A stretch of 64,000 bases of DNA, taken from contig NZ_JAVIFT010000001.1 in assembly GCF_031157355.1 (NCBI RefSeq), positions 992,001 through 1,056,000 on the forward strand, in the 5' to 3' direction. Source of the stretch: Hyphomicrobium sp. LHD-15. GTDB taxonomy: Bacteria; Pseudomonadota; Alphaproteobacteria; Rhizobiales; Hyphomicrobiaceae. Below are positions 17,536 to 40,315 of this stretch, piece after piece. Positions within the stretch are counted from its first letter, which is position 1; every line of letters begins with the position of its first letter. The position numbers and the translations under genes are program-made. The notes beneath the pieces were generated by a model. The model made no database searches. It saw only the letters and a program-made list of their open reading frames with translations, and had not been told where the DNA came from.

Positions 17536-17640
17536 AGACCGATGATTCACGCTTCGGACTTTGTCTGCGCTACCGATTCACGCCTCGGCCGATAGGGGCC
17601 GCGGCGATCGGAGCGCGAGGATCCGAAGCGATCATGGTCT
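17536..17640. repeat. Palindromic repeat, nested form (copy A)
   Basis: A 105-bp copy of the dispersed palindrome family. The outer arms are agacc-g-atgat-tcac-gcttcggac on the left and tccgaagc-g-atcat-ggtct on the right. The loop contains a second palindrome of the same design, gcgct-a-ccgat-tcac-gcctcggcc, closed by gggccgcggc-g-atcgg-agcgc. It ends 63 bases before the decarboxylase start. Confidence 0.85.
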
Positions 17641-17703
17641 AGAACTCGTCATCCAGCGATGCCATATAGCGCGCTCGGTTCCTTCCTCGCGCGATGGTCA
17701 GCC

Positions 17704-18843
17704 ATGCTCCCCAACATTCCCAGCGATATCCGCACCCCCGCCTATGTGCTCGACGCGGCGGCCCTCAAGCGGAACCTCGAGACGGCTGCCCGCGTCAAGC
17801 GCGAGGCCGGCGTCAAAGTCCTGCTCGCCACCAAGGCGTGGGCGATGCCGGCTGCCTTCCCGCTGATGCGCGACGTGCTGGACGGCACCACCGCGTCCGG
17901 CGAGTACGAAGCCCGCATGGGCCGCGAGGAGTTCGGCCGTGAGGTGCACGTCTATGCGCCGGCCTACGGACCGGGCGAGGTCGAGCGGCTGACGGCGATC
18001 GCCGATCACATCTACTTCAATTCGCCCGAGCAGATTGCGCGCGGCCTTCCGCTCGTGAAGGCGGCCGGGCGTGAGGTCGGCATTCGCATCAATCCCGGCT
18101 ATTCCAATGCGACCGTCGGCGGGGCGCTCTACGACCCTTGCGCGCCGTGCTCGCGCTTCGGCACCACCGTGGACGAGATCGACCAGCTGCCGTGGGATGA
18201 CATCGACATCTTCCACGTCCATGCGCTTTGCGAATCTCTCGACAACGGATCGGTCGGGTTGATCGAGCATGTGGCACGTGGCTTCGCGCCCTATCTCCGC
18301 CGCGTCAAAGCCGTGAACTTCGGCGGCGGGCATTTCATGAACAAGCCGGGCTACGATGTGTCGAAGCTGATCGCGGCGCTGCGTGCCTTCCGCGCCGAGT
18401 TCGGTATCGAAGTTTACCTCGAGCCTGGCGCCGGCCTTGTCGTCGATACCGGCTATCTGGTGTCGACGGTGATTGGGCTGCATCACAACGTGAAGGACAT
18501 CGCGATCCTCGATGCCTCCGCCTCGACGCACATGCCGGACGTGCTGGAGGTGCCATACACGCCGACGGTGATCGGCGCGAAGGAGCCCGGCGCGCTCCCG
18601 CATTCCTACCTGCTCGGCGGCAAGACCTGCATGACCGGCGACGTGATCGGCGAATACTCTTTCGCCGAGCCGCTCGTGCCCGGCTCGCGCGTCGTGTTCA
18701 CCGACATGATGCAGTATTCGTTCGTTAAGAACACGACCTTCAACGGTACGCCGCTGCCGGATCTCGCCATCCTGCACGAGGACGGGCGCTACGAGGTGGT
18801 CCGGACGTTCGGCTACGAGGAATTCAGGCGGCGGCTCGGCTAG
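17704..18843 (+). CDS. nspC: Carboxynorspermidine/carboxyspermidine decarboxylase
   Basis: PLP-dependent alanine-racemase-fold decarboxylase, 379 residues from the ATG at 17704; the upstream frame overlaps the repeat region. Family features: DIRTPAYVLDAAALKRNLE, the PLP lysine in VLLATKAWAMP, the barrel motif DIDIFHVHALCESLDNGS, NFGGGHFMNKPGYD, the C-terminal LEPGAGLVVDTGYLV and LGGKTCMTGDVIGEYSF with the active-site Cys and Asp. It removes CO2 from carboxy(nor)spermidine, the last step of the alternative (nor)spermidine pathway, and so pairs with the dehydrogenase at 13543. The two genes are not in one operon. Confidence 0.93.
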   Translation: MLPNIPSDIRTPAYVLDAAALKRNLETAARVKREAGVKVLLATKAWAMPAAFPLMRDVLDGTTASGEYEARMGREEFGREVHVYAPAYGPGEVERLTAIADHIYFNSPEQIARGLPLVKAAGREVGIRINPGYSNATVGGALYDPCAPCSRFGTTVDEIDQLPWDDIDIFHVHALCESLDNGSVGLIEHVARGFAPYLRRVKAVNFGGGHFMNKPGYDVSKLIAALRAFRAEFGIEVYLEPGAGLVVDTGYLVSTVIGLHHNVKDIAILDASASTHMPDVLEVPYTPTVIGAKEPGALPHSYLLGGKTCMTGDVIGEYSFAEPLVPGSRVVFTDMMQYSFVKNTTFNGTPLPDLAILHEDGRYEVVRTFGYEEFRRRLG

Positions 18844-19055
18844 AGCGCGTTCCAAAAACGGGTGTATTTTCTGGACGCAGGCGCTCCGCCTCGTCGGGAA
18901 CGCGGGGCTGTGCCATGGCCCCGCGCTTCATTCCGGGAACGAAAACGCGGAGCCATAGTTACACACCATCGGACACGATACCGAGGGATATCCTCACTCA
19001 CGCGATAACCTCTCCTCGCTACGGGCGAGATTGGCCGGGCACAAGGAATGTCTCT

Positions 19056-19781
19056 GTGACCTCACGCCTCATGTTCCAGCCGCCACTCGTTCTCGATTCC
19101 AACGCGGGAAATGCCGCCAAGAATTTTCCGATATCGCTTCGAGTCTACGGTTCGACGTCCGACATGACCGAGCTCTATCGGCTTCGCTATCGCGCCTTCC
19201 GGAGTGCGGGCTGGATCGGCGAAACCCCGGACCACGAATTTCTTGATCGCTACGATGCAATGGAAACGACGGTTGCGATCGGTGCCTTTCACAACGGTGA
19301 CTGCATCGGCTCCTTGCGGCTGGCCTTTGGCGGGAGCGCGACCAGGGCGGGTTCGATGCCGTGCGAGGAGCAGTTTCCGGTCGAAGTCGGCGCGCTGCGC
19401 GAGGCCAACCATCATCGCCTCGTCGAATTCTCGCGCATGGCGGTCGAGCCTTCGCTCACCAACAGGTCGTTCAGGACGACGCTTTACGCATCGCTGGTGC
19501 GTGCCGGGCTGATCCTCACGACGGCGTCCGGTGTCGATGCCGCGGTCATCGCCGTGCACCGCAACGTCTCGCCCTTCTATCAGGCGATGTGCGGGTTCAC
19601 GGTCCTGGGCACTTCGGCTTTTTACGCAGGTATTGCGGAGCCTACACACTTCCTGGCTCTGCCGTTTCAAACGCTGGACGAGCGCCGCAAACGGCAAAAC
19701 GCATTCTTTGCGGTGTCTGCAGAAGAAATCGAACGGGCGCGGATCACGCTTGCCGCCATGCGGCGGCAAGTGGCGGCATGA
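19056..19781 (+). CDS. FeeM-like N-acyltransferase (GNAT fold)
   Basis: About 241 residues. The core resembles N-acyl amino acid synthase FeeM and related autoinducer-synthase-like acyltransferases: ELYRLRYRAFRSAGWI, DRYDAMETTVAIGAF, CIGSLRLAFGG and LVEFSRMAVEPSL. After this come NVSPFYQAMCGFTVLG and a C-terminal helix. Such enzymes use acyl-ACP to acylate an amino group. I chose the GTG at 19056, preceded by AAGGA; ATG codons at 18915 and 19071 are alternatives. No biosynthetic partner genes lie nearby. Confidence 0.7.
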   Translation: MTSRLMFQPPLVLDSNAGNAAKNFPISLRVYGSTSDMTELYRLRYRAFRSAGWIGETPDHEFLDRYDAMETTVAIGAFHNGDCIGSLRLAFGGSATRAGSMPCEEQFPVEVGALREANHHRLVEFSRMAVEPSLTNRSFRTTLYASLVRAGLILTTASGVDAAVIAVHRNVSPFYQAMCGFTVLGTSAFYAGIAEPTHFLALPFQTLDERRKRQNAFFAVSAEEIERARITLAAMRRQVAA

Positions 19782-19920
19782 AGTAGGTTCTTCGCGCGGC
19801 GCTTGTGCCCCTCCGGGAAGCGCCAGGGTTGCGCGCGCGGGGTAATGGGTCTTAGTCTGTGGGTGTGGGGGGCGTAAGCGATATGCCGCGAGGGGTGGCG
19901 CGCCAGTAAAAGGAGCCCAC

Positions 19921-20448
19921 ATGGCCACATCTGCCAAGCTGGAGCGAAGCGTCCTCAGCCATGAGGAGTTCGCCCTCGTCAAAGACACCCACCACCCTGA
20001 AATCTATGGTGTCGGCGATCTCAAGGCCTTGCAGGAGCTGCAAAGCAGATTGCGCACGCTGCGCGGCAAGGAACGCACGCTCACGCGTCAGAAGCGGCGG
20101 GAGACCCGAGGAAAATCCGAGGCGCGCGGCAAGAGCTTTCCGGGCACCTCCGAGCAACCTCTCAAGCGGAAACAGGTGTTCGCGGCAGCGCTGAAGCGCG
20201 TCAACAACGAGGTCCGGCGCGTGCGTGCGATCGAAGCCACCGCCCGAAACGTGGAAGCTGCTCACAAGGCGTTCCAGCTCAAGCGCGAAGCCAATTTTCT
20301 CCATCATCCGGTCGAACGCACAGCCAGCGACGGGATGAAGTCTCTTTCGAACACTCGCCGACGTTCGCATATTCCGGGAAGCCAGATCGGTAGCGTCTCG
20401 CAGGCGACAAAGGTCGCGCAGGCGATCAAGGATTCGCGCCCGTCGTAA
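19921..20448 (+). CDS. Basic protein of unknown function
   Basis: 175 residues, strongly basic, with a good AAGGAG site 5 bases before the start. The N-terminal half reads DTHHPEIYGVGDLKALQEL, then an Arg/Lys-rich helix (RLRTLRGKERTLTRQKRRET). The middle and C-terminus contain KRVNNEVRRVRAIEATARN and a Ser/Gln-rich tail. No signal peptide or membrane segment. The charge suggests nucleic-acid binding, but no domain is recognised. Confidence 0.6.
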   Translation: MATSAKLERSVLSHEEFALVKDTHHPEIYGVGDLKALQELQSRLRTLRGKERTLTRQKRRETRGKSEARGKSFPGTSEQPLKRKQVFAAALKRVNNEVRRVRAIEATARNVEAAHKAFQLKREANFLHHPVERTASDGMKSLSNTRRRSHIPGSQIGSVSQATKVAQAIKDSRPS

Positions 20449-20473
20449 CGGCTTCTCGCGCTAAAAAACCAAC

Positions 20474-20505
20474 GGGCCGCCGGCCTCTTGCGAGGCGGGC
20501 GGCCC
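20474..20505. terminator. Strong bidirectional hairpin between convergent genes
   Basis: GGGCCGCC (20474-20481) pairs with GGCGGCCC (20498-20505); inside, GCCTC (20483-20487) pairs with GAGGC (20492-20496) around a ttgc loop. It separates the basic-protein gene from the minus-strand Lys-rich gene, with an A-run (ctaaaaaacc) on the left that becomes a T-run for minus-strand transcripts. Confidence 0.85.
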
Positions 20506-20565
20506 TAACCGTTCGAGCGAAGCGATGCGACCCAGCCCTGGTGCCCGCCCCGCGACATCCGACGG

Positions 20566-20868
20566 CTATTTCTTGTCGTCAGCTTTCTTGTCGACCTTCT
20601 TGGCAGTTTTCTCTGCTGCCTTCTTGTCAGACTTCTTTTCGACCTTCTTCACCTTCTTGGCCTTGTGCGCCTTCTTCTTGTGCTTGTGCTTATGCTCGGC
20701 CTTCGCCTCCTGCTTCTTGCCACGCTCGTGAGAGGCAAACGTCACCTCGGACGCGGCAGAACCGGTGTGTGCGCTCGGCCCCTTGGGCAGCGCAACGGCC
20801 ATCGAGCTGGCTGCAAGCAATCCGATCAAAGCGGCGCTCAAAGCCGCAGACTTCTTGAACGTCTTCAT
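20566..20868 (-). CDS. Secreted Lys/Ala-rich protein
   Basis: 100 residues from the ATG at 20868, which has GGAGGG upstream; the longer frame up to 20946 lacks a signal peptide at its start. The signal peptide is SAALSAALIGLLAASSMAVA. The mature part is dominated by Lys, Ala, Glu and His: EHKHKHKKKAHKAKK, KVEKKSDKKAAEKTAKK, ending VDKKADDKK. It is a histone-H1-like low-complexity composition. A His/Lys cluster (HKHKHKKK) could bind anions or metals. Function unknown. Confidence 0.65.
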   Translation of the reverse strand: MKTFKKSAALSAALIGLLAASSMAVALPKGPSAHTGSAASEVTFASHERGKKQEAKAEHKHKHKKKAHKAKKVKKVEKKSDKKAAEKTAKKVDKKADDKK

Positions 20869-21080
20869 CAATCCCTCCGTAGGACGATCCCCGGTCGGAC
20901 GCATAGGCCGGCCCAATGCCGCCTCGCGCTGATCGACCATGCTCAAACGCGTACAAACGCCTCGGAGAAATTATTGAGGGGCTCGAACGGAGGGAAAGAT
21001 TTAGTGCTTATAAGAAGCCCAGCGCGCCGGTGCATTCGTAATCACGGACGCGCTGCTTCCGTTGCCCGGTGCAGAATGGC

Positions 21081-21278
21081 TCAGCGCTTCGCGCGGCAGG
21101 ATTGCAGGCAGCGCGTCAACTCGGAGCCGCAGCTCGGGCTGTCCTTGGTGGCGCGGCGGCAGGAGTTCTCCTGCGCATAGCAACGCTGTGCACAATCGTT
21201 GGCAAAGGTTGCGGCCGGAATCAGGGCCGAGAACCCGAAGCACAAGGCTGCGGTCGCGTAACGAATTGTCCGGTTCAT
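21081..21278 (-). CDS. Small secreted twin-CxxxC protein
   Basis: 65 residues from the ATG at 21278 (GGAGGG site). After a signal peptide ending FGFSALIPAATFA, the mature part is about 39 residues: NDCAQRCYAQENSCRRATKD followed by SPSCGSELTRCLQSCRAKR. Six Cys fall as C-x3-C-x6-C-x8-C-x7-C-x3-C, with CxxxC pairs at both ends, the layout of a disulfide-stapled helical hairpin. No family recognised; a periplasmic structural or copper-handling role is conceivable but unproven. Confidence 0.65.
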   Translation of the reverse strand: MNRTIRYATAALCFGFSALIPAATFANDCAQRCYAQENSCRRATKDSPSCGSELTRCLQSCRAKR

Positions 21279-21526
21279 TTTCGACCCTCCCTCTGCTGGA
21301 TTGGCTTTCGACACAACGCCCTGCTCTGCTCAATAGGAGCGGCCTGCCCGATAGTGGCCCTTGTTCGCCCCGTTGCGCGGATGATGCGTAAACGTGGTTT
21401 ACACGCTCAACGATGAACGTCACCTGAACCGGGCCGTCAAGCCTTCCGCGCCATTTAAGGTTGCTGCAACATGGCGTTCGGAAAGCACTAGGAGTAGCGC
21501 AGGCACGCACGCTCCAGGTCTTGGCA

Positions 21527-21805
21527 AGACCGAGGATTCACGCTTCAGGCATTTCCTGCGCTGCCGATTCACGCCGCGGCCAATAGGGGCCGCGACGATC
21601 GGAGCGCGTGGGCCCAAAGCGATCATGGTGGTTTTTAGTGAGACCGACGATTCACGCTTCAGGTTTCTCCTGCGCTGCCGATTCACGCCGCGGCCGATAG
21701 GGGCCGCGACGATCGGAGCGCGTGGGTCCGAAGCGATCGTGGTGGTTTTTAGTGAGACCGACGATTCACGCTTCGGACTGATAGCGTCCGAAGCGATCGT
21801 GGTCT
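21527..21805. repeat. Palindromic repeat tandem array: two 114-bp units plus one 51-bp unit (copy B)
   Basis: Units 21527-21640 and 21641-21754 are each exactly 114 bp and nearly identical. They are nested versions, with an outer palindrome split by an inner GC-rich palindrome. The third unit, 21755-21805, is the simple 51-bp form: agacc-g-acgat-tcac-gcttcggac, a 7-base loop, then gtccgaagc-g-atcgt-ggtct. The array overlaps the gshA stop codon by two bases. The 250 bases to its left (21279-21526) hold the 21278 gene's promoter and a GTAAAC-gtg-GTTTAC palindrome (21388-21402) but no gene. Confidence 0.9.
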
Positions 21806-23186
21806 AGAACGCGAATTCCTCGAAGATGTGGTCGATGTTGCCCTGCCAGGGGCCCTCGAAGCGGTCGATCAGCTCGTCGGCCACGGTGCGGCCCGCGGCC
21901 GCCAGCCGCTGAAGCGGGGCCAGATAAATCGTCTCGTCCTGGCTTTTGACGTTGATCTGGCGGCGATTTTTGAGGCCGAGGTGGGAAATGCGCAGCGCCG
22001 TGCGCGCCAGCTCCTGGACGGTGGTGTCCTTGAACTTGGCGTCCAGGGCCAAGCGCGGCACGATCGCGCGCAACTCATCCCGGTCGGCGGCGGTCCAGGT
22101 CTTGACCATATCCCAGGCAGCATCGAGCGCGACCTCGTCGTAAAGAATGCCAACCCAGAACGCGGACAGCGCACAAATACGAGGCCAACGTCCACCGTCG
22201 GCGCCGCGCATCTCGAGGAAGCGCTTCAGGCGCACTTCAGGGAAGAGCGTGGTGAGGTGATCCGACCAATCATCCAGCGTCGGGCGTTCACCAGGAAGGG
22301 CCGCGAGCCTCCCCTCCATGAAATCCCGGAAGGATGCTCCCGCGACGTCGATGTAGCGGCCCGAGCGATAGACGAAGTACATCGGCACATCGAGCGCGTA
22401 ATCCACATAACGCTCGTAGCCCATTCCGTCCTCGAATACGAAGGGCAGCATGCCGGTGCGGCGCGGATCGGTCTCGCGCCAGACTTCGCTGCGCAACGAC
22501 TTCATGCCGTTGATGCGGCCTTCGGTGAAAGGCGAGGAGGCGAACAGCGCAGTGGCGATCGGCTGCAGCGCGAGGCTCACACGCAGCTTCTTCACCATGT
22601 CGGCTTCGCTGCCGAAGTCGAGATTCACCTGGATGGTCGCAGTGCGATACATCATGTCGAGACCGCGCTTGCCGACCGTCGGCATGTAGCGCGTCATCAC
22701 CGCATAGCGCTGCTTCGGCATGTGCGGGGTTTCTTCGAGCGTCCATTTCGGCGAAAAGCCGACGCCGAGAAATCCGATGCCGAGATCCTCACCGACGTCG
22801 AGCACCTCGTTCAGATGCTGCTGCGTCTCGTCGGCGGTTTCATGAAGGGTCTCGAGCGGCGCGCCGGACAGCTCGAACTGGCCGCCTGGCTCGAGGCTGA
22901 TGGTACCGCCGGGCTGCCCGTCCGGCCGCTTGAGCGCGATGATGTTCTCGCCCTCGGTGATCGGCTCCCAATCATAGCGCGCGATCATGTGTTCCATCAG
23001 TGCGCGGATACCGCGCGGGCCCGCGTATGGAACAGGCGTCAGCGTCTCGGTCTGGAAGACGAACTTTTCGTGCTCGGTGCCGATGCGCCAAGCATCCTTG
23101 GGCTTCTCGCCAGCCGCGATCCAGGCGACAAGATCGTCGCGGGAACGCACGGGCGGACTTTTGGCCCCATCCTGGCGGGTCGACAT
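21804..23186 (-). CDS. gshA: Glutamate-cysteine ligase (plant/alphaproteobacterial type)
   Basis: First enzyme of glutathione synthesis: ATP-dependent formation of gamma-glutamylcysteine in the cytosol. Its 460 residues are typical for class 2 (plant-like) ligases. Motifs: WRIGTEHEKFVF (substrate and metal binding, residue about 35), GGTISLEPGGQFELSGAPL near 110, YMPTVGKRGLDMMYRTATIQ near 165, and YVDYALDVPMYFVYR. Its stop codon touches the palindromic repeat array. Glutathione fits formaldehyde detoxification in methylotrophs, though no partner gene is adjacent. Confidence 0.95.
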   Translation of the reverse strand: MSTRQDGAKSPPVRSRDDLVAWIAAGEKPKDAWRIGTEHEKFVFQTETLTPVPYAGPRGIRALMEHMIARYDWEPITEGENIIALKRPDGQPGGTISLEPGGQFELSGAPLETLHETADETQQHLNEVLDVGEDLGIGFLGVGFSPKWTLEETPHMPKQRYAVMTRYMPTVGKRGLDMMYRTATIQVNLDFGSEADMVKKLRVSLALQPIATALFASSPFTEGRINGMKSLRSEVWRETDPRRTGMLPFVFEDGMGYERYVDYALDVPMYFVYRSGRYIDVAGASFRDFMEGRLAALPGERPTLDDWSDHLTTLFPEVRLKRFLEMRGADGGRWPRICALSAFWVGILYDEVALDAAWDMVKTWTAADRDELRAIVPRLALDAKFKDTTVQELARTALRISHLGLKNRRQINVKSQDETIYLAPLQRLAAAGRTVADELIDRFEGPWQGNIDHIFEEFAF

Positions 23187-23311
23187 GCGTGGGGCCTCTG
23201 GGGGTCCGGAAAAGGCGTAGGCGTTGCTGGGCAGGAGTTATGGCGACCCCGGGGCGCCTAAACAAGGGGTTGCTGTCGTTGGTCGCGCGTCCGGTCGCCG
23301 CGCGCGCTCGA

Positions 23312-23758
23312 CTAACGGGGACGCGCGGGTGGTAAACAGGGCAGCACGCGGCGCGGGTCGTCCGGAATGGTTTCCGATTGCAGGCAGGCCTCGAGGCGGC
23401 GGATCATCACCGAGCTATGGTTTGCCCGGAGACAATCGATAAACAGCCGGACTCCCTGGGCAACGCAGCCGTCTAGCTCGGCCATGATGAACTGGGGCGC
23501 GTCGACATCGGGGCGATCTTTGCGAGAAAGGTCGATGTTCGGCTCGATGAAAATCGAGGGCCCGTCGTTTCGGCCGGGCCTTCCAGGCCGATCGTCGGGG
23601 CGTCCGGGACGCGACCGGTCCCCGCCTCTCTCCTGCGGACGCACCATCTCCGCTGGCCCCGGGCCCTCCTGGGCCGCGAGTTGCATGGGCGAAATGGCGG
23701 TCAACACCGCCGCGCAGACCAGGGCCGCCTTGGCTTGCATATCCATCTGCTTCTGCAT
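23312..23758 (-). CDS. Secreted protein with Arg/Gly/Pro-rich linker, unknown
   Basis: 148 residues with a signal peptide (about 1-29, ending MQLAAQ). A low-complexity segment follows (ERGGDRSRPGRPDDRPGRPG). The C-terminal domain, about 70-148, has four Cys: DGCVAQGVRLFIDCLRANH, RLEACLQSETI and RRVLPCLPPARPR. The two first Cys are eight apart on a likely helix. No family recognised. Confidence 0.55.
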   Translation of the reverse strand: MQKQMDMQAKAALVCAAVLTAISPMQLAAQEGPGPAEMVRPQERGGDRSRPGRPDDRPGRPGRNDGPSIFIEPNIDLSRKDRPDVDAPQFIMAELDGCVAQGVRLFIDCLRANHSSVMIRRLEACLQSETIPDDPRRVLPCLPPARPR

Positions 23759-23868
23759 TCAAGGAGCGCATCAGCCGGCAGGCTTCGCGCCAGCCCTCCA
23801 CGATAGATAGGGAACGTAAACGAATCGCTCCTTAAAATTCGACCAGCAATTCAGGAATGGAGGTCGCG

Positions 23869-24195
23869 ATGAAATACGAGGCACTCCTCGCCGGCGGGAT
23901 AATCGTGGCGGGCATTGCAGCCGCGGCCCTGACGCTCGATGGCGAAACGGTTCCCAACAAGAAGATGGCCGGCGGGTCGGAGGCGTGCACCTATCACGCG
24001 GGTCCGATGGACGGCGATCTCATCAGCGAAGGCTCGGATGCCGGACGGCGCATCCTTCAGTCCATTCTCGCGCTCGAACGTAAATGCGAGTACGTCACGC
24101 TTGCGTTGCCGGACGGCACGCGTCAGGTCATGAAGCTCGGCAAGGCCGGCCGCAAACCGGGCGAGCGCGGCCCACCCAGCATCACAACGTTCTAG
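23869..24195 (+). CDS. Small exported or membrane-anchored protein, unknown
   Basis: 108 residues from the ATG at 23869, chosen because AATGGAGG lies 6-12 bases upstream. One N-terminal hydrophobic segment (EALLAGGIIVAGIAAAALTL) is either a signal peptide or an anchor. The rest is polar with two Cys (EACTYHAGPMDG and ERKCEYVTLALPDG). Function unknown. Confidence 0.55.
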   Translation: MKYEALLAGGIIVAGIAAAALTLDGETVPNKKMAGGSEACTYHAGPMDGDLISEGSDAGRRILQSILALERKCEYVTLALPDGTRQVMKLGKAGRKPGERGPPSITTF

Positions 24196-24207
24196 AGCAT
24201 CTTCCGA

Positions 24208-25140: not shown

Positions 25141-25176
25141 CGGGGTTTTTCTCGTGCGTGCAGCCGAAGCCGAGCT

Positions 25177-25611: not shown

Positions 25612-25653
25612 GGTTATCGCTCCTCAAGACGGCGCCGGCCTCTTATGGTGAAG

Positions 25654-25704
25654 AGACCGATGATTCACGCTTCAGGCTGGTAGGGCCTGAAGCGATCATG
25701 GTCT
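25654..25704. repeat. Palindromic repeat, 51-bp form (copy C)
   Basis: agacc-g-atgat-tcac-gcttcaggc, loop tggtagg, gcctgaagc-g-atcat-ggtct. All 5+5+9 arm positions pair; the bulges (g and tcac on the left, g on the right) are the family constants. It lies between the MaoC gene start (25611) and trcR (25881). Confidence 0.9.
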
Positions 25705-25880
25705 AGCGGGCGGCCCGCCTATGTGCAACTTGCCGTATAACAAGCCGTGCACCCACAAAAACCGGAACGCAGGTGTTGCGGCCGGAGGCGGGAAAGCGTT
25801 ATAAGGCGCAATCCCCAAATTCCTACCCCCTATAATGGCCTTCGCAGCCCGTCGCCGCGAAAGCCCGGAGAAGAGCCGCT

Positions 25881-27840: not shown

Positions 27841-27891
27841 TGACCGATGTTTCACGCTTCAGGCTGGTAGGGCCTGAAGCGATCATGGTCA
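27841..27891. repeat. Palindromic repeat, 51-bp form (copy D)
   Basis: tgacc-g-atgtt-tcac-gcttcaggc, loop tggtagg, gcctgaagc-g-atcat-ggtca. Compared with copy C, the terminal base pair changes on both sides (a..t to t..a), keeping the stem. The last three bases overlap the stop codon of the ankyrin gene. Confidence 0.9.
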
Positions 27892-31298: not shown

Positions 31299-34200
31299 AT
31301 GGCAAAGGGCAACGGCGTGGCGGAAACCGACGTCAAGGGCAGCGACGGCGCTGGTGGGCGCGACTGGAGCCAGACGCTCAATCTGCCGCAGACCGATTTT
31401 CCGATGCGGGCGGGGCTGCCCGACCTCGAGCCGAAGATCCTCAAACGCTGGCAGGAGCGCAATCTTTACAAGGAGTTGCGGGACGCCTCTCAGGGACGCC
31501 CGAAGTTCGTGCTGCATGACGGGCCGCCCTACGCCAACGGCCACATCCACATCGGGCACGCGCTGAACAAGATCCTCAAGGACCTGGTGGTCAAAAGCCA
31601 GCAGATGCTCGGCTTCGATTCCAACTACGTGCCGGGCTGGGACTGCCACGGGTTGCCGATCGAATGGAAGATCGAGGAGCAATATCGTGCCAAGGGCCAG
31701 GAGAAGCCAAACTTCTCGGACCCGGCCGCGATCAACGCGTTCCGCGACGAATGCCGGCGCTTCGCGGAGAAATGGGTCGACGTGCAGCGCGAGGAGTTCA
31801 AGCGGCTCGGCGTGATCGGCGACTGGGCGAACCCGTACCTCACGATGAGCTACGCGGCGGAAGCGACGATCGCCAGCGAGCTGATGAAGTTTGCCGCCAA
31901 CGGGCTTCTCTATCGCGGCTCGAAGCCGGTGATGTGGAGCGTGGTCGAGAAGACGGCGCTGGCGGAAGCCGAGGTCGAGTACCAGGACTATCAGAGCGAC
32001 GCGGTGTGGGTGAAGTTTCCTGTTCGTGACGCGCTTACCGCTACCAAACCTGAATGGCTTGACTCATCGAAGCCATTTCCAATGGTGAATGCGGCAAACT
32101 TGCTGTTCGACGCTTCAATCGTCATCTGGACCACCACGCCGTGGACACTCCCCGGCAACCGCGCCATCAGCTTCTCGTCGAAGATCGCATACGGCCTCTA
32201 CGAAGTGACCGCTGCGCCCGAAAACAATTGGGCTAAGGTCGGCGACAAATACATTCTTGCGGACAAGCTCGCGGCCGACGTGATGAAGTCTGCGAAGGTG
32301 GAAGCCTTCGAGCGACGGAGCGACGTGGCGTCTGAAGACCTCAAGAGCCTCGTCAGTGCGCATCCGCTCGCTGCGCTCGGCTATGATTTCGACGTCCCCC
32401 TCCTCGACGGCGATCACGTCACCGACGACACCGGCACGGGCTTCGTGCACACGGCGCCCGGCCACGGCGCGGACGACTACATCATCTGGATCGCGAACCA
32501 GAAGGCGCTGCGTGACCGCGGCGTCGACACCACAATCCCGTTCACCGTGGATGCCGACGGCGTGCTGACCAAGGAGGCGCCCGGCTTCACCGGCAAGCGC
32601 GTGCTGAAGGAGAACGGCGACAAGGGCGACGCCAACGACGCCGTCATCAAGGCGCTCAGCGAAGCCGGCAACATCATCGCGCGCGGGCGGCTCAAGCATC
32701 AGTATCCGCACTCGTGGCGCTCGAAGAAGCCGATCATCTTCCGCAACACGCCGCAGTGGTTCATTGCGATGGATAAGTCGCTTTCGCCGCTCAAGACCTT
32801 GGAAGGCGACGTCGTGCCTGCTCCGCTACGCACGCTGCGCCAGATCGCACTCGACGAAATCAAAGCCACCGAGTGGGTGCCGGAAGCGGGAGAGAACCGC
32901 ATCAACGGCATGATCGCCAATCGGCCGGATTGGGTCGTCTCGCGCCAGCGCGCATGGGGCGTGCCGATCACCGTGTTCGTCGCCAAGGCCGATCATGACG
33001 GCTTCAAGGAAGGCGATATCCTGCGCGACGAGAGCGTCAACACCGCGATCGCCGACGCGTTCGCCAAGGACGGCGCGGACGCGTGGTTTGCGGCCGGCTC
33101 GGCTGAGCGCTTCCTCAAGCCGAAATACGATCCCGCCAAGTGGGAGCAAGTGCGCGACGTGCTCGACGTATGGTTCGACTCGGGCTCCACGCACGCCTTC
33201 GTGCTCGATGATCCAAAGCAGTTCCCCGGCCTCTCAGGCATCAAGCGCGTTCGTGATGGTGGCCGCGATCGCGTGATGTATCTCGAAGGCTCGGACCAGC
33301 ATCGCGGCTGGTTCCATTCCTCGCTGCTCGAAAGCAGCGGCACGCGCGGGCGCGCACCCTACGACGTGGTGCTGACGCACGGCTTCATCCTCGACGAAAA
33401 GGGGGATGAGAAGATGTCGAAGTCGAAGGGCAACGTGCTGTCGCCGCAGGACGTGATGAAAACGTCAGGCGCCGACATCCTGCGCCTCTGGGTGGCGTCG
33501 GCCGATACCACGAACGATATCCGCTTCGGACCTGCCATCGTGCAATCGGGCGCAGAAGCTTACCGCAAGCTTCGCAACACGCTACGCTGGATGCTCGGCG
33601 CGCTGCACTATTTCTCGCCGGAGCTGCAGGTCGCACGCGCCGACCTGCCCGAGCTCGAACGGCTGATGCTGCATCGTCTTTGGGAGCTCGACCGCGACGT
33701 GCGTGCCGCTTACGCGGCTTATGACTATCGCGGCGTCGTCGCGGCGCTGTCGCCGTTCATGAACACGGATCTCTCCGCCTTCTATTTCGACATCCGCAAG
33801 GACACGCTCTACTGCGAAGCCTATTCGAGCGTGAAGCGGCGGGCGGCGTTGACCGTGATCGACCAGATCTTCGGCTGCGTGACTTCGTGGCTGGCTCCCA
33901 TCCTCAGCTTCACGGCGGAGGAAGCCTGGATCCACCGCTATGGACCCGAGCGCAGCGTGCATCTCGAAACCTTCCCCGACGTTCCCGAAGCCTGGCGTGA
34001 CGACGCGCTGGCCGAGAAGTGGGAGCGCGTACGCGATGTGCGGCGCGTGGTGACCGGTGCGCTCGAACTAGAACGGGCCGCAAAGCGGATCGGCTCCAGC
34101 CTCGAGGCGGCGCCCGAGATCTACGTGACGGATGCCGCAACACTCGAAGCCATCCAGGGTATCGATCTCGCCGAAATCTCGATCACGAGCGCGGCGACCC

Positions 34201-34403
34201 TGGTGCGCAAGCTGGCGCCGGATAACGCCTTCACGCTCCCCGACGTGGCGGGCGTCGGCGTGGTGCCGCAGCGTGCGGAAGGACGTAAATGCGCTCGCTC
34301 GTGGCGGATCACCACCGATGTGGGGTCAGATCCGGATTTTCCGGACTTGTCGGCCCGTGATGCCACTGCCGTCCGCGAGCGCGACTCACGGGGTCACGCA
34401 TGA
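31299..34403 (+). CDS. ileS: Isoleucyl-tRNA synthetase
   Basis: 1034-residue class I synthetase charging tRNA-Ile. HIGH motif in [15 protein letters not shown] (near residue 84), editing domain with [19 protein letters not shown], and [15 protein letters not shown]. The C-terminal zinc finger of many bacterial IleS is degenerate: [17 protein letters not shown] and LSARDATAV replace KCxRCW and LCxRC, so only one of four Cys remains, a pattern usual in alphaproteobacteria. It overlaps lspA by 4 bases (ATGA), indicating translational coupling. Confidence 0.97.
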
Positions 34404-34930
34404 CCGCTGCGGCAGGATCTTTCTCGCGGTGGTTGTGGGGACCTTATTCTGCCCTCGCGCTCAAGATCGCGGTTGTGACGTTCGTCGTCGACCAGGCGCA
34501 CAAGTGGTGGATGCTGCTGATCTACCGGATCGAGGAGAAGGGGCGGGTGACGATCACCTCCTTTTTCGATCTCGTTTTTGTTAAGAATACCGGCATCAGC
34601 TACTCGATGCTGGACGGCTCAAGTTCCTCCTGGCAGCTTGTTCTGGCTTTGTTTTCCGTTATCGCCTCTGCCGCCCTTTGGGCCTGGCTCGCGGGCGCCG
34701 GAACCGGCCGGCTGATGGCCTGGGCGCTTGGTCTGATCATCGGCGGAGCCCTTGGAAACGGGCTCGACAGGGTGCTGATCGGTGGGGTGGCGGACTTCTT
34801 CTCGCTGCACGCCTATGGGTTCTACTGGTATGTCTTCAACATCGCAGATGTGGCGATTGTTGCCGGTGTGGTGTTGCTCTTGTATGACTCCTTCGTGGGG
34901 AGTCGCAATGACGCCGCAAACTCGGGTTAG
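34400..34930 (+). CDS. lspA: Lipoprotein signal peptidase (signal peptidase II)
   Basis: 176-residue aspartyl membrane protease that cleaves prolipoproteins. The catalytic Asp pair is visible: [16 protein letters not shown] (Asp123) and [15 protein letters not shown] (Asp150). Four membrane segments fit the family. Its start overlaps the ileS stop, a common ileS-lspA pairing. A lipoprotein gene follows 56 bases downstream. Confidence 0.97.
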
Positions 34931-34986
34931 CCCGTCGGATGTAACGCACGGGTTTGCAGGGCAAAAAACGGGGCGGGCGATCAAAC

Positions 34987-35454
34987 ATGATCACAGGCTT
35001 GAAATTCGCTAAGCGCTTGGTGGCCGTCGCGGTCATCCCGTTTGCGCTGGCCATTGCCGGATGCTCGGCCGACGACGTCCAGCTCAACGGCAAGATCTTC
35101 GATGCGGTCGGGCTCAACAGCATCGGCCAGAAGTCCGCCGAGCCCAAGATGGTCGAGCGCGCGCCGCTCGTCATGCCGCCGAGCCTCGATCGCGTTCCCG
35201 AGCCCGGCCAGCCGGCCGACGCGGCCGCGAACGACGTGACGGCGATGGTCGACGACCCCGACAAGAAGGCTAAGACCAACCGCGCCGAACTCGAGAAGCA
35301 GCAGGCCGAATACTGCAAGACGAACTACGAGATGGCGAAGGCGCGCGGTGACGACAACGCCGACCTTGCCACCGGCCCGCTCGGACCGTGCCGCGCGTCC
35401 GTGCTGTCGGCCATCCAGATATGGAACAAGGGCGACGACGCCGACGAGGAATGA
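34987..35454 (+). CDS. Outer- or inner-membrane lipoprotein of unknown function
   Basis: 155 residues from the ATG at 34987. The lipobox LAIAGC follows a hydrophobic signal (KRLVAVAVIPFALAIAGC), so Cys23 is the predicted lipidation site. The mature part contains LNGKIFDAVGLNSIGQKS, a Pro-rich segment (PLVMPPSLDRVPEPGQP) and a C-terminal domain with two Cys (QQAEYCKTNYEM and GPLGPCRASVL). It resembles short alphaproteobacterial lipoproteins annotated only as conserved. Its location after lspA suggests co-expression. Confidence 0.75.
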   Translation: MITGLKFAKRLVAVAVIPFALAIAGCSADDVQLNGKIFDAVGLNSIGQKSAEPKMVERAPLVMPPSLDRVPEPGQPADAAANDVTAMVDDPDKKAKTNRAELEKQQAEYCKTNYEMAKARGDDNADLATGPLGPCRASVLSAIQIWNKGDDADEE

Positions 35455-35707
35455 GCGGCGGAAGCGCCGCCCGCTCGTCCATGGCGTTCAGGGAAATCCC
35501 TGACCGATCAATCCTCTGATCTGCATATACCGTTCTCCTAACGTGATTTTTCCCACTTCGACATGAACGGGTTGTCATTTGACAATGGCGCCCGGAATGC
35601 CGAGATCTCGTGCACGTATTTGCCTGCCCTTCCGGTCGGCGCCGGACGGCAGTTTTCCCCCCGCGATCACTCGCCGCCGAGGATCCGATCTCGCCACCGA
35701 GGATCAT

Positions 35708-37102
35708 ATGATGCATTCAACGGGCGTACTGCGCCTTCTTACCTGGATTGCCTCGATCATGCTCGCCATTGCGCCTTCACAGCTTCATGCCCAGCCCCGT
35801 ACCAGCGAATTCAAGCTCGCCAACGGGCTTCAGGTCGTCGTGATCCCCGATCATCGCGCCCCCGTCGTCACGCACATGGTCTGGTACAAGGTCGGTGCGG
35901 CCGATGAGCCGAAGGGCGTCTCGGGCATCGCGCACTTTCTCGAACATCTGATGTTCAAGTCGACGGACAAGATTCCGCTCGGCGAATTCTCGAAGATCGT
36001 CGCCCGCCTCGGCGGCAACGACAACGCCTTCACCGGCCACGACGTGACAAGCTACTTCCAGCGCATCTCCAAGGACCGCCTCGGCACCGTCATGGAGATG
36101 GAAGCCGACCGCATGGTCAATCTGCGCCTCACCGAGAAAGAGGTTCTGACCGAGCGCGACGTGATCCTCGAGGAGCGGCGCAGCCGCATCGAGAACAACC
36201 CGGCTGCGATCATGGACGAGCAGATGAACGCGGCGCTCTACTACTCGCATCCCTACGGCATCCCGGTGATCGGCTGGGAGCACGAGATGGCGAAGCTTTC
36301 GCCGCAGGATGCGATGACCTTCTACAAACACTTCTACGCGCCCAACAACGCGATCCTCGTCGTTGCCGGCGACGTCACCGCCGATGAAGTGCGCGCACTC
36401 GCCGAAAAGACCTACGGCCAGATCCCTGCCAACCCCACGGTCGGGGCGACGCGCGAGCGTCCGCAGGATCCGCCGCAGCGCGCAGCGCGGCGCGTCGAAT
36501 ACAGCGATCCGCGGGCCGGCAAGGCTTCGTTCCATCGCGACTACGTCGTGCCGAGCTACATCACCGCGAAGCCCGGCGAGGCCGAAGCGCTCGACCTTCT
36601 GATGAAGATCGCCGCAGACGGCGCGACGAGCCGGATCTACAAGCGCCTCGTCGTCGAGGAGAAGATCGCCTCGTCCGCAGGCGGCAGCTACTCGGGCTCG
36701 GGCCTCGATTATGGAACGATCAGCCTCTACGCCGTCGAAGCAGGAACAGCCGGTCTTCCGCAGATCGAAGCGTCAATCGACAAGGTGCTGGCGGAGATCC
36801 GCGACAATGGCGTCACGGAAGCCGAGCTCAAGCGCGCGCAGTCGAGCTATATCGCCGACTACATCTACGAGAACGACGACCAGGCCTCGCTCGCCCGGCG
36901 TTACGGCTGGGGCCTCGCGCTCGGCCGCTCCGTCGCGCAGATCGAAGGCTGGCCGGATGCCATCTCCAAGGTGACGGTCGACGACATCAAGCGCGCCGCA
37001 GGAACCTATCTCGATGTTCGCCGCTCGGTGACGGGCTATCTGCGCCCGTCGACGGAAGGCAATGTCCGTGCGGAGCAGCCGGGCGCAAAGAGCCGCTCAT
37101 AG
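35708..37102 (+). CDS. Zinc-dependent M16 peptidase, active subunit
   Basis: 464 residues with a signal peptide (about 1-28, ending QLHAQ). The inverted zinc motif HFLEH (residues 76-80) is followed by the third ligand Glu in DVILEERRSRI. The rest forms the two roughly homologous M16 domains (for example PNNAILVVAGDVTADEVRAL). The ATG at 35708 has GAGG upstream. It is a periplasmic processing-peptidase-like enzyme, and it is paired with the following M16 gene that lacks the zinc motif, the usual active/inactive heterodimer arrangement. Confidence 0.92.
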   Translation: MMHSTGVLRLLTWIASIMLAIAPSQLHAQPRTSEFKLANGLQVVVIPDHRAPVVTHMVWYKVGAADEPKGVSGIAHFLEHLMFKSTDKIPLGEFSKIVARLGGNDNAFTGHDVTSYFQRISKDRLGTVMEMEADRMVNLRLTEKEVLTERDVILEERRSRIENNPAAIMDEQMNAALYYSHPYGIPVIGWEHEMAKLSPQDAMTFYKHFYAPNNAILVVAGDVTADEVRALAEKTYGQIPANPTVGATRERPQDPPQRAARRVEYSDPRAGKASFHRDYVVPSYITAKPGEAEALDLLMKIAADGATSRIYKRLVVEEKIASSAGGSYSGSGLDYGTISLYAVEAGTAGLPQIEASIDKVLAEIRDNGVTEAELKRAQSSYIADYIYENDDQASLARRYGWGLALGRSVAQIEGWPDAISKVTVDDIKRAAGTYLDVRRSVTGYLRPSTEGNVRAEQPGAKSRS

Positions 37103-37137
37103 GGCTCTTCACCAATCGTGCTCGCCCGGAAACTTTC

Positions 37138-37265
37138 GTTCGCACGGCTCCGCCATGACTTGTTCGCACGGCTCCGTCGAGATCTGCTTCAGAAGTTTCC
37201 GGGAGCACACTCTAAGTTGGCAGTGCTCCTTATTGGAAAACCGCTTCACACTTTTCCGGGAGCAC
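37138..37265. repeat. Short direct repeats in the gap between the two M16 genes
   Basis: GTTCGCACGGCTCCG occurs at 37138-37152 and 37162-37176 (24-base period). TTTCCGGGAGCAC occurs at 37196-37208 and 37253-37265. GGAGCAC (37202-37208) also pairs with GTGCTCC (37223-37229), so a local hairpin is possible. The gap is 178 bases and otherwise shows no gene. Confidence 0.6.
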
Positions 37266-37280
37266 TTTAAGGACATCCCA

Positions 37281-38654
37281 ATGCCCATGCTCAACCGCTC
37301 GCTCGTGCGTCTACCCCGCATCGACATCGCGCTCTCGTTGACCGTCCTCGCATTCGCCCTCCTCTTCTCTTTTTCCAGGCCCGCTCACGCCATGAAAATC
37401 CAAGTCGTCAAAAGTCCGGGCGGTATCGAGGCCTGGTTGGTCGAAGCCCGCGAGAACCCGCTGCTGGCGCTCAAGTTCTCGTTCGAAGGCGGCAACTCGC
37501 AGGATCCGAAAGGCAAGGACGGCGTCGCCAACTTCGTCTCGGCGATGCTCGACGAGGGCGCGGGAGACATCCCGGCAAGCGACTTCCAGGAGAAGATGGA
37601 AGAGCTCGCGATGCGCATGCGCTACGAGGACAGCCGCGATGCGTTTTACGGCAACTTCGAGACGCTGACGCAGAACCGCGACGAATCCGTCAAGCTCCTG
37701 AAGCTCGCACTGACGAAGCCGCGCTTCGACCAGGATGCGGTCGAGCGCATCCGCGCGCAGCTGCTGGCCAACCTCGTTTATTCCGATCGCGATCCCGAGA
37801 AGGTCGCGGCAAAGGAATGGTACGCGACCGCGTTCTCCGGGCACTCCTACGGCCGCCCGTCGCAGGGAACCGAAGAAACCGTCACCGCCATCACGCGCGA
37901 CGATCTCGAAGCCTATCGCAAGCGGATCTTCGCGCGCAGCAATCTCAAGGTCGTGGCGGTCGGCGACATCACGCCGGAACAGCTCGGCAAGCTGCTCGAC
38001 GACGTGTTCGGCGATCTCCCGGAAAAGGCAGAGCTTGCGGACGTGCCGCTGACCAAGCCGGTCTCGGGCGCCCAGGAAAAGTGGATCAATATGGACGTTC
38101 CGCAGTCCGTCGCGGTATTCGGCCTGCCCGCCATGCCCCGCAAGGACCCGGACTTCATGGCCGCATTCGTTCTCAACCAGCTCATCGGCGGCGGCGGCTT
38201 CGCTTCGCGTCTGATGGAGGAAGTCCGCGAGAAGCGCGGCCTCGCCTATTCGGTCTATAGCTACATTCAGCCGTTCCGGCATACGTCGATCTTCTCCGGC
38301 GGCGTGGCAACCCGCGCGGATGCCATCCAGCAGTCGCTCGACGTAATCCGCAAGGAGCTTAAGCAGGTGGCCGACGAAGGCCCGACGCCGGACGAGTTCG
38401 AGAACGCCAAGAAATACCTGACCGGCTCCTATGCGCTCCGCTTCGATACCAACTCGAAGATCGCAAGCCAGCTGCTCGGCCTTCTGGAAGACGATTTCGG
38501 ACCCGACTACATCGACAACCGCAACAAGATGATCGAGGCTGTCACGCTCGACGACGCCAAGCGCGTCGCCAAGCGCCTGCTCGATACCAACAACCTGATC
38601 GTGACGATCGTCGGCCAGCCGGCAACGGCTCCAGCGGCCGACAAGAAGGGCTGA
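37281..38654 (+). CDS. M16 peptidase-like protein, inactive partner
   Basis: 457 residues from the ATG at 37281, with AAGGA 7-12 bases upstream. A signal peptide ends FSFSRPAHA. The fold markers are M16: LALKFSFEGGNSQDPKGKDG, a substrate-binding region with LIGGGGFASRLMEEVREKRG and LAYSVYSYIQPF, but the HxxEH site is replaced by VANFVSAMLDEGAGDIP. In such pairs the second subunit keeps the R/Y substrate motif (here EKRGLAYSVY) while the first supplies zinc. It probably acts with the preceding gene product in the periplasm. Confidence 0.9.
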   Translation: MPMLNRSLVRLPRIDIALSLTVLAFALLFSFSRPAHAMKIQVVKSPGGIEAWLVEARENPLLALKFSFEGGNSQDPKGKDGVANFVSAMLDEGAGDIPASDFQEKMEELAMRMRYEDSRDAFYGNFETLTQNRDESVKLLKLALTKPRFDQDAVERIRAQLLANLVYSDRDPEKVAAKEWYATAFSGHSYGRPSQGTEETVTAITRDDLEAYRKRIFARSNLKVVAVGDITPEQLGKLLDDVFGDLPEKAELADVPLTKPVSGAQEKWINMDVPQSVAVFGLPAMPRKDPDFMAAFVLNQLIGGGGFASRLMEEVREKRGLAYSVYSYIQPFRHTSIFSGGVATRADAIQQSLDVIRKELKQVADEGPTPDEFENAKKYLTGSYALRFDTNSKIASQLLGLLEDDFGPDYIDNRNKMIEAVTLDDAKRVAKRLLDTNNLIVTIVGQPATAPAADKKG

Positions 38655-38687
38655 GCCAGCCCTTCTGCCCTCAGTCAGGGGCAGAAC
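38644..38687 (+). terminator. Two overlapping hairpins at the M16 stop codon
   Basis: AGAAGGGCT (38644-38652) pairs with AGCCCTTCT (38658-38666) across the stop codon. TCTGCCC then pairs with GGGGCAGA further on. No T-run is present, so an mRNA-end stabiliser is as likely as a terminator. Confidence 0.45.
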
Positions 38688-38719
38688 TCTCCTTCGCGCA
38701 AGCGTATGCCCTCACCCAA

Positions 38720-38745
38720 CCCTCTCCCCAGCCGCGGGGAGAGGG
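38720..38745. repeat. CCCTCTCCCC/GGGGAGAGGG palindrome
   Basis: A perfect 10-bp inverted repeat with a 6-base spacer, preceded by ctcaccca. It is the same kind of element as at 5499-5514, with a related stem at 26682-26705. It lies 97 bases upstream of pgi. Confidence 0.6.
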
Positions 38746-38841
38746 AGATCGCTTGGCGAACGGAGCAAAAAAGGCTACCTCCACGCGGCAACCAAGGCGG
38801 TTCCTCGCAGGTTATGGGGACGCCATGCCCATCAGGACGCC

Positions 38842-40203
38842 ATGACCTCATCCAGCTCTCTCGCCTCCCCCTCCTATCGCCAGTCGATTGCAGGCTGCCT
38901 TTCGGGCGCCATCGGCGAGCACGGCCTTTCGGAGAGTGAACTCGGCCGATGGCTCGAGAAGCTCAAGCCCGCGCTGCACGACCTCAAGGCCGACCACGCG
39001 AGCGGACGCCTGCCGCTGCTCAGAATTGCCGAAGAGACGGCCGACCTCGACGCAGCGGAGGCCGCGCTCGACAAGCTCTGCCAGGACGCGGAGACCGTCG
39101 TGTTTTTCGGCACCGGAGGATCGGGGCTCGGCGGACAGACGCTGGCGCAGCTTGGGGGCTGGAACCTGCCGGGCGTTTCCTGCTGCTCGGCCGGGCGCCA
39201 GAACCGGCCTCGTCCCCGCACGCGTTTCTACGACAATCTCGATCCGCTCACGCTTTCGGCCGGGCTTGCTCGCCTCGATCTCGAGAAGACGCGCTTCGTC
39301 GTCACGTCGAAATCCGGCGGCACGACCGAAACGCTGGCGCAACTGATCACAACGCTGTCGGCAATCAAGGCGGCGGGCCTCGAAAGCAAGATCCCGCAGC
39401 TTTTCCTCGGCATCACCGAGCCTGACAAACCTGGCAAGACGAACGGCCTCAGGGCGCTGCTCGGCAGCCTCGGCGTTCCGATGCTTGAGCATCACACGGG
39501 GATCGGCGGGCGCTTCTCGTGCCTCACCAACGTCGGCCTGATGCCGGCAATCGCGCGCGGCCTCGATGCGCGCAAGATCCGCGAAGGCGCGCGCGAGGTG
39601 ATCGACAGCCTCGTCAACGCATCGTTCCCGATCGCGTTCGCACCTGCCATCGGCGCGGCGACGGCCGTCGGGCTATCGAAAGAGCGCGGCATCCGCACGC
39701 TCGTCATGATGCCCTATAACGACCGCCTCGGCCGTTTCTCGGAATGGTACGTGCAGCTGTGGGCGGAAAGCCTCGGCAAGGGCGGCGAAGGCACCACGCC
39801 GGTTCCGGCGCTCGGGCCGCTCGACCAGCACAGCCAGCTTCAGCTGTTCATGGACGGCCCGCGCGAGATCGCGGTGACCGTCGTGCGCGTCGCAAGTGCC
39901 GGTGCGGGTCCGGTTCTCGACGCCGAATTCGCGAAACTCGCCGGGCAGGATTTCCTCGGCGGGAAGACGCTCGGCGACGTGGTCGATGCGCAGGCCCATG
40001 CGATCGCAGAAGCGCTGACGCAGGCGGGCCGGCCAGTCAGAACCTTCGATATCGATACGCTCGACGAGCGCTCGGTCGGCGCGCTGCTCATGCATTTCAT
40101 GATCGAGACGATTTTGGCGGGGCGGCTTCTGGAGCTGGATCCGTTCGACCAGCCCGCCGTCGAGCTTGCGAAGACGCTAACCAAAGAACGGCTGTCGCGC
40201 TAA
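38842..40203 (+). CDS. pgi: Glucose-6-phosphate isomerase
   Basis: 453 residues, the short bacterial form. Sugar-phosphate isomerase features: VVFFGTGGSGLGGQTLAQLG, FVVTSKSGGTTETLAQLIT (phosphate-binding SIS loop), RFSCLTNVGLMPA and a Glu-containing MPYNDRLGRFSEWYVQLWAE region, then GPLDQHSQLQLFMDGP near residue 330, the family signature with active-site Gln/His. It interconverts glucose-6-phosphate and fructose-6-phosphate in the cytosol. No obvious partner genes adjoin it. Confidence 0.92.
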   Translation: MTSSSSLASPSYRQSIAGCLSGAIGEHGLSESELGRWLEKLKPALHDLKADHASGRLPLLRIAEETADLDAAEAALDKLCQDAETVVFFGTGGSGLGGQTLAQLGGWNLPGVSCCSAGRQNRPRPRTRFYDNLDPLTLSAGLARLDLEKTRFVVTSKSGGTTETLAQLITTLSAIKAAGLESKIPQLFLGITEPDKPGKTNGLRALLGSLGVPMLEHHTGIGGRFSCLTNVGLMPAIARGLDARKIREGAREVIDSLVNASFPIAFAPAIGAATAVGLSKERGIRTLVMMPYNDRLGRFSEWYVQLWAESLGKGGEGTTPVPALGPLDQHSQLQLFMDGPREIAVTVVRVASAGAGPVLDAEFAKLAGQDFLGGKTLGDVVDAQAHAIAEALTQAGRPVRTFDIDTLDERSVGALLMHFMIETILAGRLLELDPFDQPAVELAKTLTKERLSR

Positions 40204-40264
40204 TCCGCGTTCTGGAGCGTGACTGCCCTTCTTCGAATTGCAATCACGCTCAAGATTCTTGATG

Positions 40265-40315
40265 AGACCGATGATTCACGCTTCGGACTGATAAGGTCCG
40301 AAGCGATCATGGTCT
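40265..40315. repeat. Palindromic repeat, 51-bp form (copy E)
   Basis: agacc-g-atgat-tcac-gcttcggac, loop tgataag, gtccgaagc-g-atcat-ggtct. Relative to copies C and D, two inner stem pairs (aggc/gcct to ggac/gtcc) change together. It lies between pgi and the minus-strand response regulator gene. Confidence 0.9.

Follow-up and report, generated by a model that had tools for sequence, protein, structure and literature searches.

A bulged hairpin repeat in the window

The window analysed here, a stretch of 64,000 nucleotides from Hyphomicrobium sp. LHD-15 (contig NZ_JAVIFT010000001.1, positions 992,001 to 1,056,000), carries several copies of a dispersed palindromic repeat whose stem is interrupted by bulges. 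Folding gives AGACC paired with GGTCT, a bulged G, ATGAT paired with ATCAT, a bulged TCA, ten further pairs and a seven-base loop; across copies, the unit comprises 5 bp, usually a single G bulge, 5 bp, the TCA bulge, ~10 bp and a TGATAGG-like loop. All the copies named in the first-pass annotation, an earlier reading of the letters alone, were recovered where it had placed them. They are listed below with two further hairpins; model matches and bit scores refer to the covariance model R1, with which whole genomes were searched, and z values to folding as DNA, with 200 shuffles per copy.

17536..17640, + strand: composite copy, with a second hairpin within the loop of the outer hairpin; -37.5 kcal/mol, z -6.45; model match at 17566-17617
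17567..17616, + strand: inner hairpin of this composite, from alignments; 5 bp, a single-base bulge (here A), 5 bp, the TCA bulge and a stem of unrelated sequence
21527..21631, + strand: composite, unit 1 of 3 in tandem, outer stem partly mismatched; z -3.11; inner match at 21557-21608
21641..21745, + strand: composite, unit 2 of 3; z -3.05, 1 of 200 shuffles as good; inner match at 21671-21722
21755..21805, + strand: short hairpin, unit 3 of 3; 73.8 bits, z -5.96; the AG after it makes the end GGTCTAG
25654..25704, + strand: short hairpin; 75.1 bits; TCTAG at the right edge
27841..27891, + strand: short hairpin, one middle-stem pair broken (GTTTCAC); 66.2 bits, z -6.20
40214..40252, + strand: leader hairpin A (AGCGTGACTGC-loop-GCAATCACGCT), ~12 bases upstream of the next bulged hairpin; belongs to a longer form of the element
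40265..40315, + strand: short hairpin; 75.7 bits, z -6.76

The four short copies folded to -17.1 to -19.3 kcal/mol (z -5.96 to -8.01) and the three long ones to -28.3 to -37.5 kcal/mol (z -3.05 to -6.45); no shuffle was as stable for six of the seven copies, and one was for the seventh, a long copy. The overall bulge layout drawn in the first-pass annotation stood, as did its view that this layout is unusual, except that the bulge written there as tcac is a three-base TCA whose following C is paired. The single plan that it extended to 17536-17640 and 21527-21805 fits only in part: the composites (the former, and the first two units of the latter) hold a nested hairpin with the same bulges on unrelated stems. 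The unit thus occurs singly, in head-to-tail arrays of ~60 bp, or enclosing another hairpin in its loop, and many arrays begin with leader hairpin A, which lay directly 5' of a bulged hairpin in 19 of 20 cases (loose pattern, 0.86 Mb, each palindrome counted once).

Covariation provided additional support for the fold. Among 23 distinct copies, chosen by a GATTCACGC-like core, 98.7% of the cells were paired compared to 93.6% in shuffles, and double-sided changes were seen at 8 of 20 pairs compared to 2.6 in shuffles, none of 500 shuffles reaching 8; when the partner was slid by 1-3 columns, pairing was lost. Most of the paired changes represent two stem haplotypes, AGGC/GCCT and GGAC/GTCC, and the cell counts therefore overstate the number of change events. 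A set of 48 distinct sequences from other genera, for which a 15-base core was required and the arms were left free, showed 222 of 288 free arm positions paired (132.6 expected, maximum of 2000 shuffles 169), although at least one of these sequences (from genome G062) looks like a chance match. The bulges were retained unequally: each base of the TCA was present in 94-95 of 97 model matches, while the single-base bulge was G in 81 (A in 7, T in 7, C in 2), so that the G, described earlier as constant, is not. Taken together, these results show that the bulged hairpin repeat is real and under folded-strand constraint, fold and covariation agreeing that pairing is constrained on one strand, as the first-pass annotation had read from arms changing in pairs. 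It had also named random substitutions and identity with a known insertion sequence (IS) terminal repeat as grounds for doubt; substitutions proved to be paired, and no IS end was recognised.

Rfam searches of the window at gathering scores returned only the small SRP RNA and tRNA-Gly (ccc), at 8399-8494 and 52799-52873, and none of these matches covers the hairpin. Beside the repeat array, ~120 intergenic bases (21083-21205) are 83-86% conserved in 5 of 6 relatives and match no Rfam family at gathering scores.

Copies, placement and turnover

The genome-wide covariance-model search that had been proposed earlier returned 134 copies in the window's genome (G000), 96 in H. nitrativorans NL23 (G006) and 30 in a third species of the genus (G007; the relatives are numbered G001 to G007), counting here and below, unless stated, matches at E 1e-5 or less. 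With the cut-off relaxed to E 0.001, all 8 genus genomes gave matches, G002 having 4. A core pattern matched 22 of 103 family genomes, some single hits among them being chance, and a reversed control matched 0. A narrower pattern retrieved 63 stretches, all in Hyphomicrobium records or in one Hyphomicrobiales metagenome-assembled genome, from a collection that may omit records near the window's genome. Sequence was read over ~0.86 Mb of G000 (41 loci, about a fifth of the genome), 0.8 Mb of G006 and 0.3 Mb of G007; the positions of the elements are those given by the searches of whole genomes.

When 63 loosely patterned sites were placed relative to called genes, 56 lay between two genes, 5 within genes (none of them a model match) and 2 had no flanking gene. 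The genes flanking the 56 intergenic sites both ran along the element in 14 cases, both against it in 14, convergently in 21 and divergently in 7; convergent gaps thus made up 21 of 56 at elements compared to 57 of 432 among all gaps of at least 100 bp. The placement is therefore intergenic and independent of the direction of the neighbouring genes.

Comparison of sites between related Hyphomicrobium, another follow-up suggested in the first-pass annotation, showed that sites are mostly unshared across species. In the block at window positions 15-30 kb, four sites compared in six relatives gave a single occupied case out of 24: at the 25654 site, G005 holds a diverged copy (25.5 bits). The 17536 site in G001 and G006, and the 27841 site in G005 and G006, are not exact empty sites, since the alignment there lacks a neighbouring gene as well. 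Elsewhere in this block, G004 has two weak matches (20.9 and 17.1 bits), and strong copies sit at different points of it in G006 and G007. Among the remaining aligned blocks, one more site was apparently shared (locus L065 of G007 with L013 of G000). G001, G002 and G006 carry the right-edge TCTAG of the 25654 copy although the site is unoccupied in them. The five bases after ATGG in 44 last units were TCTAG in 18, TCTAA in 7 and TCTGG in 4, with 13 other kinds seen once or twice. In its intergenic placement, its tandem and nested units and its mostly unshared sites, the element behaves like a non-autonomous mobile palindrome of Hyphomicrobium and related genera, akin to repetitive extragenic palindromic (REP) elements.

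A partner gene of the RAYT/Y1 type, also proposed earlier, was not borne out: the Pfam family Y1_Tnp (PF01797) was found in 0 of 8 genus genomes and in 1 of 14 that represent five further genera of the family, with working controls (5 of 14 positive). Nor did blastn among the 41 loci (0.86 Mb) reveal any repeated mobility gene beside copies. The likeness to REP elements thus extends to dispersal and folded-strand constraint, and membership of the REP/RAYT system is not supported because no RAYT/Y1 transposase was found in the genus. The only repeated neighbour was a pair of paralogous L,D-transpeptidase (YkuD) genes (L029:16293-16832 and L033:2462-3481; 71% identical over 174 residues), each within ~1 kb of a hairpin, probably by coincidence; considered as an autonomous partner, the pair was rejected and taken as host cell-wall genes.

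Orientation around the chromosome

Nearly every copy in the window's genome (133 of 134) shares one strand with the other copies of its contig (C1 48+/1-, C2 42+, C3 4-, C4 8+, C5 13-, C6 9-, C7 2+, C8 6+, C9 1+). In G006, which is one closed contig, 89 copies are + and 7 -, divided by the parS-like site at 418,944 and the terminus at ~2.25 Mb into arms of 40+/1- and 49+/6-; counted as sites, the second arm still holds 33+/6- (p 1.4e-5 against even). All 30 copies of G007 lie on two contigs of 1.52 and 2.51 Mb, with 11 of 11 on + in C2 and 19 of 19 on - in C3, and G004, at E 1e-6 or less, has 10+ on C3, 7+ on C11, 7- on C2 and three single copies elsewhere. One-strand copies flank a parS-like site within a single contig in four genomes (G000 C2:192466, G004 C3:446194, G006 418944, G007 C3:1383189), strand constancy across the G006 site holding apart from that genome's minus copies. 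These sites have one mismatch to the parS consensus. A second, different parS-like match in G006 at 2,422,533, near the terminus, was not taken as the origin because skew and motif (see below) switch at 0.38-0.42 Mb. Orientation is thus uniform in three species around the chromosome, with no reversal at origin or terminus. An assembly artefact is an unlikely source of this polarity, since G006 is a single contig whose 3,653,837 bp equal the published NL23 chromosome and the other genomes agree.

Two local irregularities were noted. The lone exception in G000, at C1:1072013, is the inner hairpin of a composite (L019:13938-14043) whose outer orientation is normal, as if its tip had flipped. Beside the terminus of G006, the stretch at 2.34-2.50 Mb has reversed skew and carries two of the seven backward copies together with two + copies, possibly a local inversion.

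Short polar motifs of the same chromosomes provided an internal contrast. They were counted in all sampled 20-kb loci of G000, G006 and G007 plus the window, with arms set at parS. The octamer GCGCTGGG ran along versus against the element 110/9 times in one arm and 8/101 in the other, and the KOPS motif GGGNAGGG 62/14 and 27/70. GCGCTGGG was chosen post hoc, being the octamer with the strongest reversal in G000 and G006; G007, outside the selection set, gave 15/1 and 0/8. Along G006 it switches at parS (0.38-0.42 Mb) and is mixed at the terminus (2.22-2.24 and 2.34-2.36 Mb), and on C1 of G000 its 0+/42- in sampled loci stands against 48+/1- for the hairpins of the whole contig. Together with parS, these contrasts rule out that the element's orientation tracks the replichores, and GCGCTGGG, with its strong origin-to-terminus orientation, is likely a polar signal of the Hyphomicrobium chromosome. 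A further octamer, TGGTTTCG, stood out in G000 and G006 as a second whole-circle motif; it failed in G007 (3:0 and 1:3) and was taken as chance. Motif counts from G002 were left out because its arms are assigned by the motif itself, which would be circular, and locus L149 of G007, the source of both exceptions in an earlier count for the arm with little skew, lies across parS from that arm. Small samples of the sister-genus genome G088 showed no fixed relation of element to motif. The direction of rRNA operons was unusable, the RF00177 search being blind (0 of 3 genomes, though NL23 is published with three operons), and tRNAs were too few for a direction test.

GC skew also differs between the two arms, the hairpin-bearing strand being G-rich in one of them. 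At third codon positions, after correction for gene strand and with genes from a simple home-made caller, its value on the element's strand was.126,.142 and.110 in one arm of G000, G006 and G007, and.004, -.004 and.023 in the other (the flat arm). As the arms of G000 and G007 were set partly by skew where a contig lacked parS, what is informative is the absence of reversal in the second arm, whose skew stays close to zero; within it, L045 (C1 2-22 kb) had a high skew of.108. Six stretches of E. coli analysed by the same method, a noisy control, gave +.008, -.021 and +.076 in one arm and -.039, -.048 and -.054 in the other. Strong gene-corrected skew in one replichore and almost none in the other is thus seen in three Hyphomicrobium species, and probably in a fourth (G002).

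Possible mechanism, rival readings and known systems

A constraint that bears on one strand whatever the direction of transcription suggests that DNA is recognised as a folded single strand, as it is in REP and IS200/IS605 elements. Targeting of the lagging strand would reverse at the origin, which the element does not do; this leaves either one-way exposure of single strands or selected orientation. Our best explanation, which we regard as quite possible and advance tentatively, is that of a REP-like mobile element served by a trans-acting enzyme and a one-way exposing process. The enzyme would act on single-stranded DNA, recognise the folded strand by its bulges and insert copies where single-stranded DNA is exposed. 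With less assurance, the strand so exposed may be the same all around the circle, in which case the exposing process would run one way through both replichores, as chromosome duplication in a one-directional form or a transfer of single strands might do; the same process might also supply the whole-circle part of the base-composition skew. A precedent for bias linked to transfer is given in a passage of PMC5371812, according to which Tn7 inserts in biased orientation into plasmids during transfer through TnsE. In the budding bacterium Hyphomonas neptunium the chromosome is moved through the stalk and skew failed to locate the origin, as noted in part of PMC6650430; its relevance to a one-way process is suggestive only. 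A bolder version, which we consider unlikely, would give the chromosome a whole-circle strand identity: beside bidirectional replication, one-directional copying or single-strand transfer linked to budding would expose the same strand in both arms, with the hairpins as its insertion record, the half-absent skew as its mutational record, and an enzyme of an undescribed family.

Several observations weigh against this explanation. No enzyme was found. GCGCTGGG has a strong orientation in the flat arm, and coding there (0.44, 0.42 and 0.47 along the element) leans to the strand expected for ordinary origin-to-terminus forks, so that replication of this arm looks ordinary and a one-way process is not directly seen. 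Copies are mixed within contigs, in blocks on some of them, in the sister-genus genomes G084 and G088, and polarity is thus not general to the repeat, even though G087 is uniform (14 of 14). Seven of the 96 copies in G006 are backward. In 22 of 26 aligned block pairs, some overlapping, the genes run the same way with respect to the elements, so inversions have seldom tested the polarity. In G002 the arms differ in much the same way although the genome has just 4 copies, so no causal link between skew and element is required, and the full reverse skew at 2.34-2.50 Mb in G006 is not what a uniform mixture of fork directions predicts, unless that stretch is inverted.

The main competitor holds that orientation is selected, the hairpins being polar marks for a machine travelling one way, for example in the passage of DNA from hypha to bud, with wrongly oriented copies lost. 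Near-uniform polarity in three species, though most compared sites are unshared, would fit this, as would the two elements in blocks inverted relative to G000 (L082 and L138), both of which follow the polarity of their own genome. Yet a vital function is unlikely, because G002 has 4 matches and two sister-genus genomes are mixed; moreover, we reason that a mark with one direction around the whole circle cannot lead the two arms of a loop to a single point, and the genus has other polar motifs that do flip. On balance we consider selected orientation improbable enough to rank as an unlikely alternative. Rather less probable in our view is that a share of duplications is one-directional from the origin, such that the flat arm is copied both ways about equally and insertion, like that of IS200/IS605 elements, takes place in the lagging-strand template of the clockwise fork. 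The near-zero skew of one arm and the full skew of the other in three species speak for it, and chromids that replicate one-directionally exist (described in part of PMC7858055), but counter-clockwise forks should give opposite insertions in the flat arm, where 48 of 49 copies on C1 agree, and the polarity of GCGCTGGG and GGGNAGGG there indicates ordinary arms.

Classical REP elements mobilised by a RAYT (TnpA-REP) transposase would share the folded single strand, the intergenic location, the arrays and nesting of units, and a short motif at one foot (of 44 last units, 18 have TCTAG and 7 TCTAA). This reading is highly improbable, given that Y1_Tnp is absent from the 8 genus genomes and present in 1 of 14 from other genera with controls working, that the foot motif is not GTAG, and that the flip at the origin predicted by lagging-strand targeting is not seen. 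Least probable of all, we think, is an RNA element in 3' untranslated regions, a terminator-like or stabilising hairpin: the excess of convergent gaps (21 of 56 vs 57 of 432) and the lack of an Rfam family covering the hairpin favour it, but between co-oriented genes copies lie with and against transcription equally (14 and 14), though the bulges are strand-specific, and no T-run follows the hairpin in the copies read.

A literature search among open-licence papers found no publication on this repeat or on whole-circle polarity. The hairpin ends lack the GTT/AAC recombination core that, together with extrahelical bases, marks integron attC sites. KOPS, Chi and other skewed polar motifs are short and non-palindromic and reverse at origin and terminus; the element shares their strong chromosomal polarity, but is palindromic and does not reverse, with GCGCTGGG, which does, as the contrast within the same chromosomes. 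With REP elements, bacterial interspersed mosaic elements (BIMEs) and REPINs, associated with RAYT, it has in common a short imperfect palindrome with mismatches, intergenic location, arrays, high copy number and a proposed single-strand mobilisation. It differs in its size (53-105 nt), two nearly fixed bulges and whole-circle polarity, in its foot, most often TCTAG (18 of 44) instead of the GTAG type, and in its head-to-tail arrays, with one inner hairpin inverted, where BIMEs and REPINs form inverted pairs. The CGTC-tagged REPs are likewise alphaproteobacterial palindromes apparently without a dedicated transposase, according to a section of PMC3733652, which gives them stems of 8-9 bp, loops of 4-5 bases, a terminal CGTC and mostly head-head dimers; the element described here has ~20 bp in three parts, loops of 6-7 bases, no CGTC end and a head-to-tail arrangement.

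IS200/IS605 elements (IS608, ISDra2) also have strand-specific hairpins recognised as single-stranded DNA and an orientation bias. That bias follows the direction of replication through lagging-strand targeting, as stated in a passage of PMC5371812, and an IS200/IS605-derived miniature inverted-repeat transposable element would follow it too, whereas the element ignores it. Strand asymmetry without half-way reversal is found in Pseudoalteromonas chromids, which replicate one-directionally in the account given in part of PMC7858055; there it concerns a secondary replicon, here the main chromosome, on which polar motifs still reverse. Strand-biased elements and skewed motifs have been described as following the fork and reversing at origin and terminus, and this repeat keeps one orientation; together with one arm almost devoid of GC skew, this would imply a process outside current models of chromosome duplication, or strong selection on a polar mark. 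The bulged hairpin offers a bait for direct capture of the enzyme that binds it, and the questions of enzyme and polarity are testable in culturable environmental strains.

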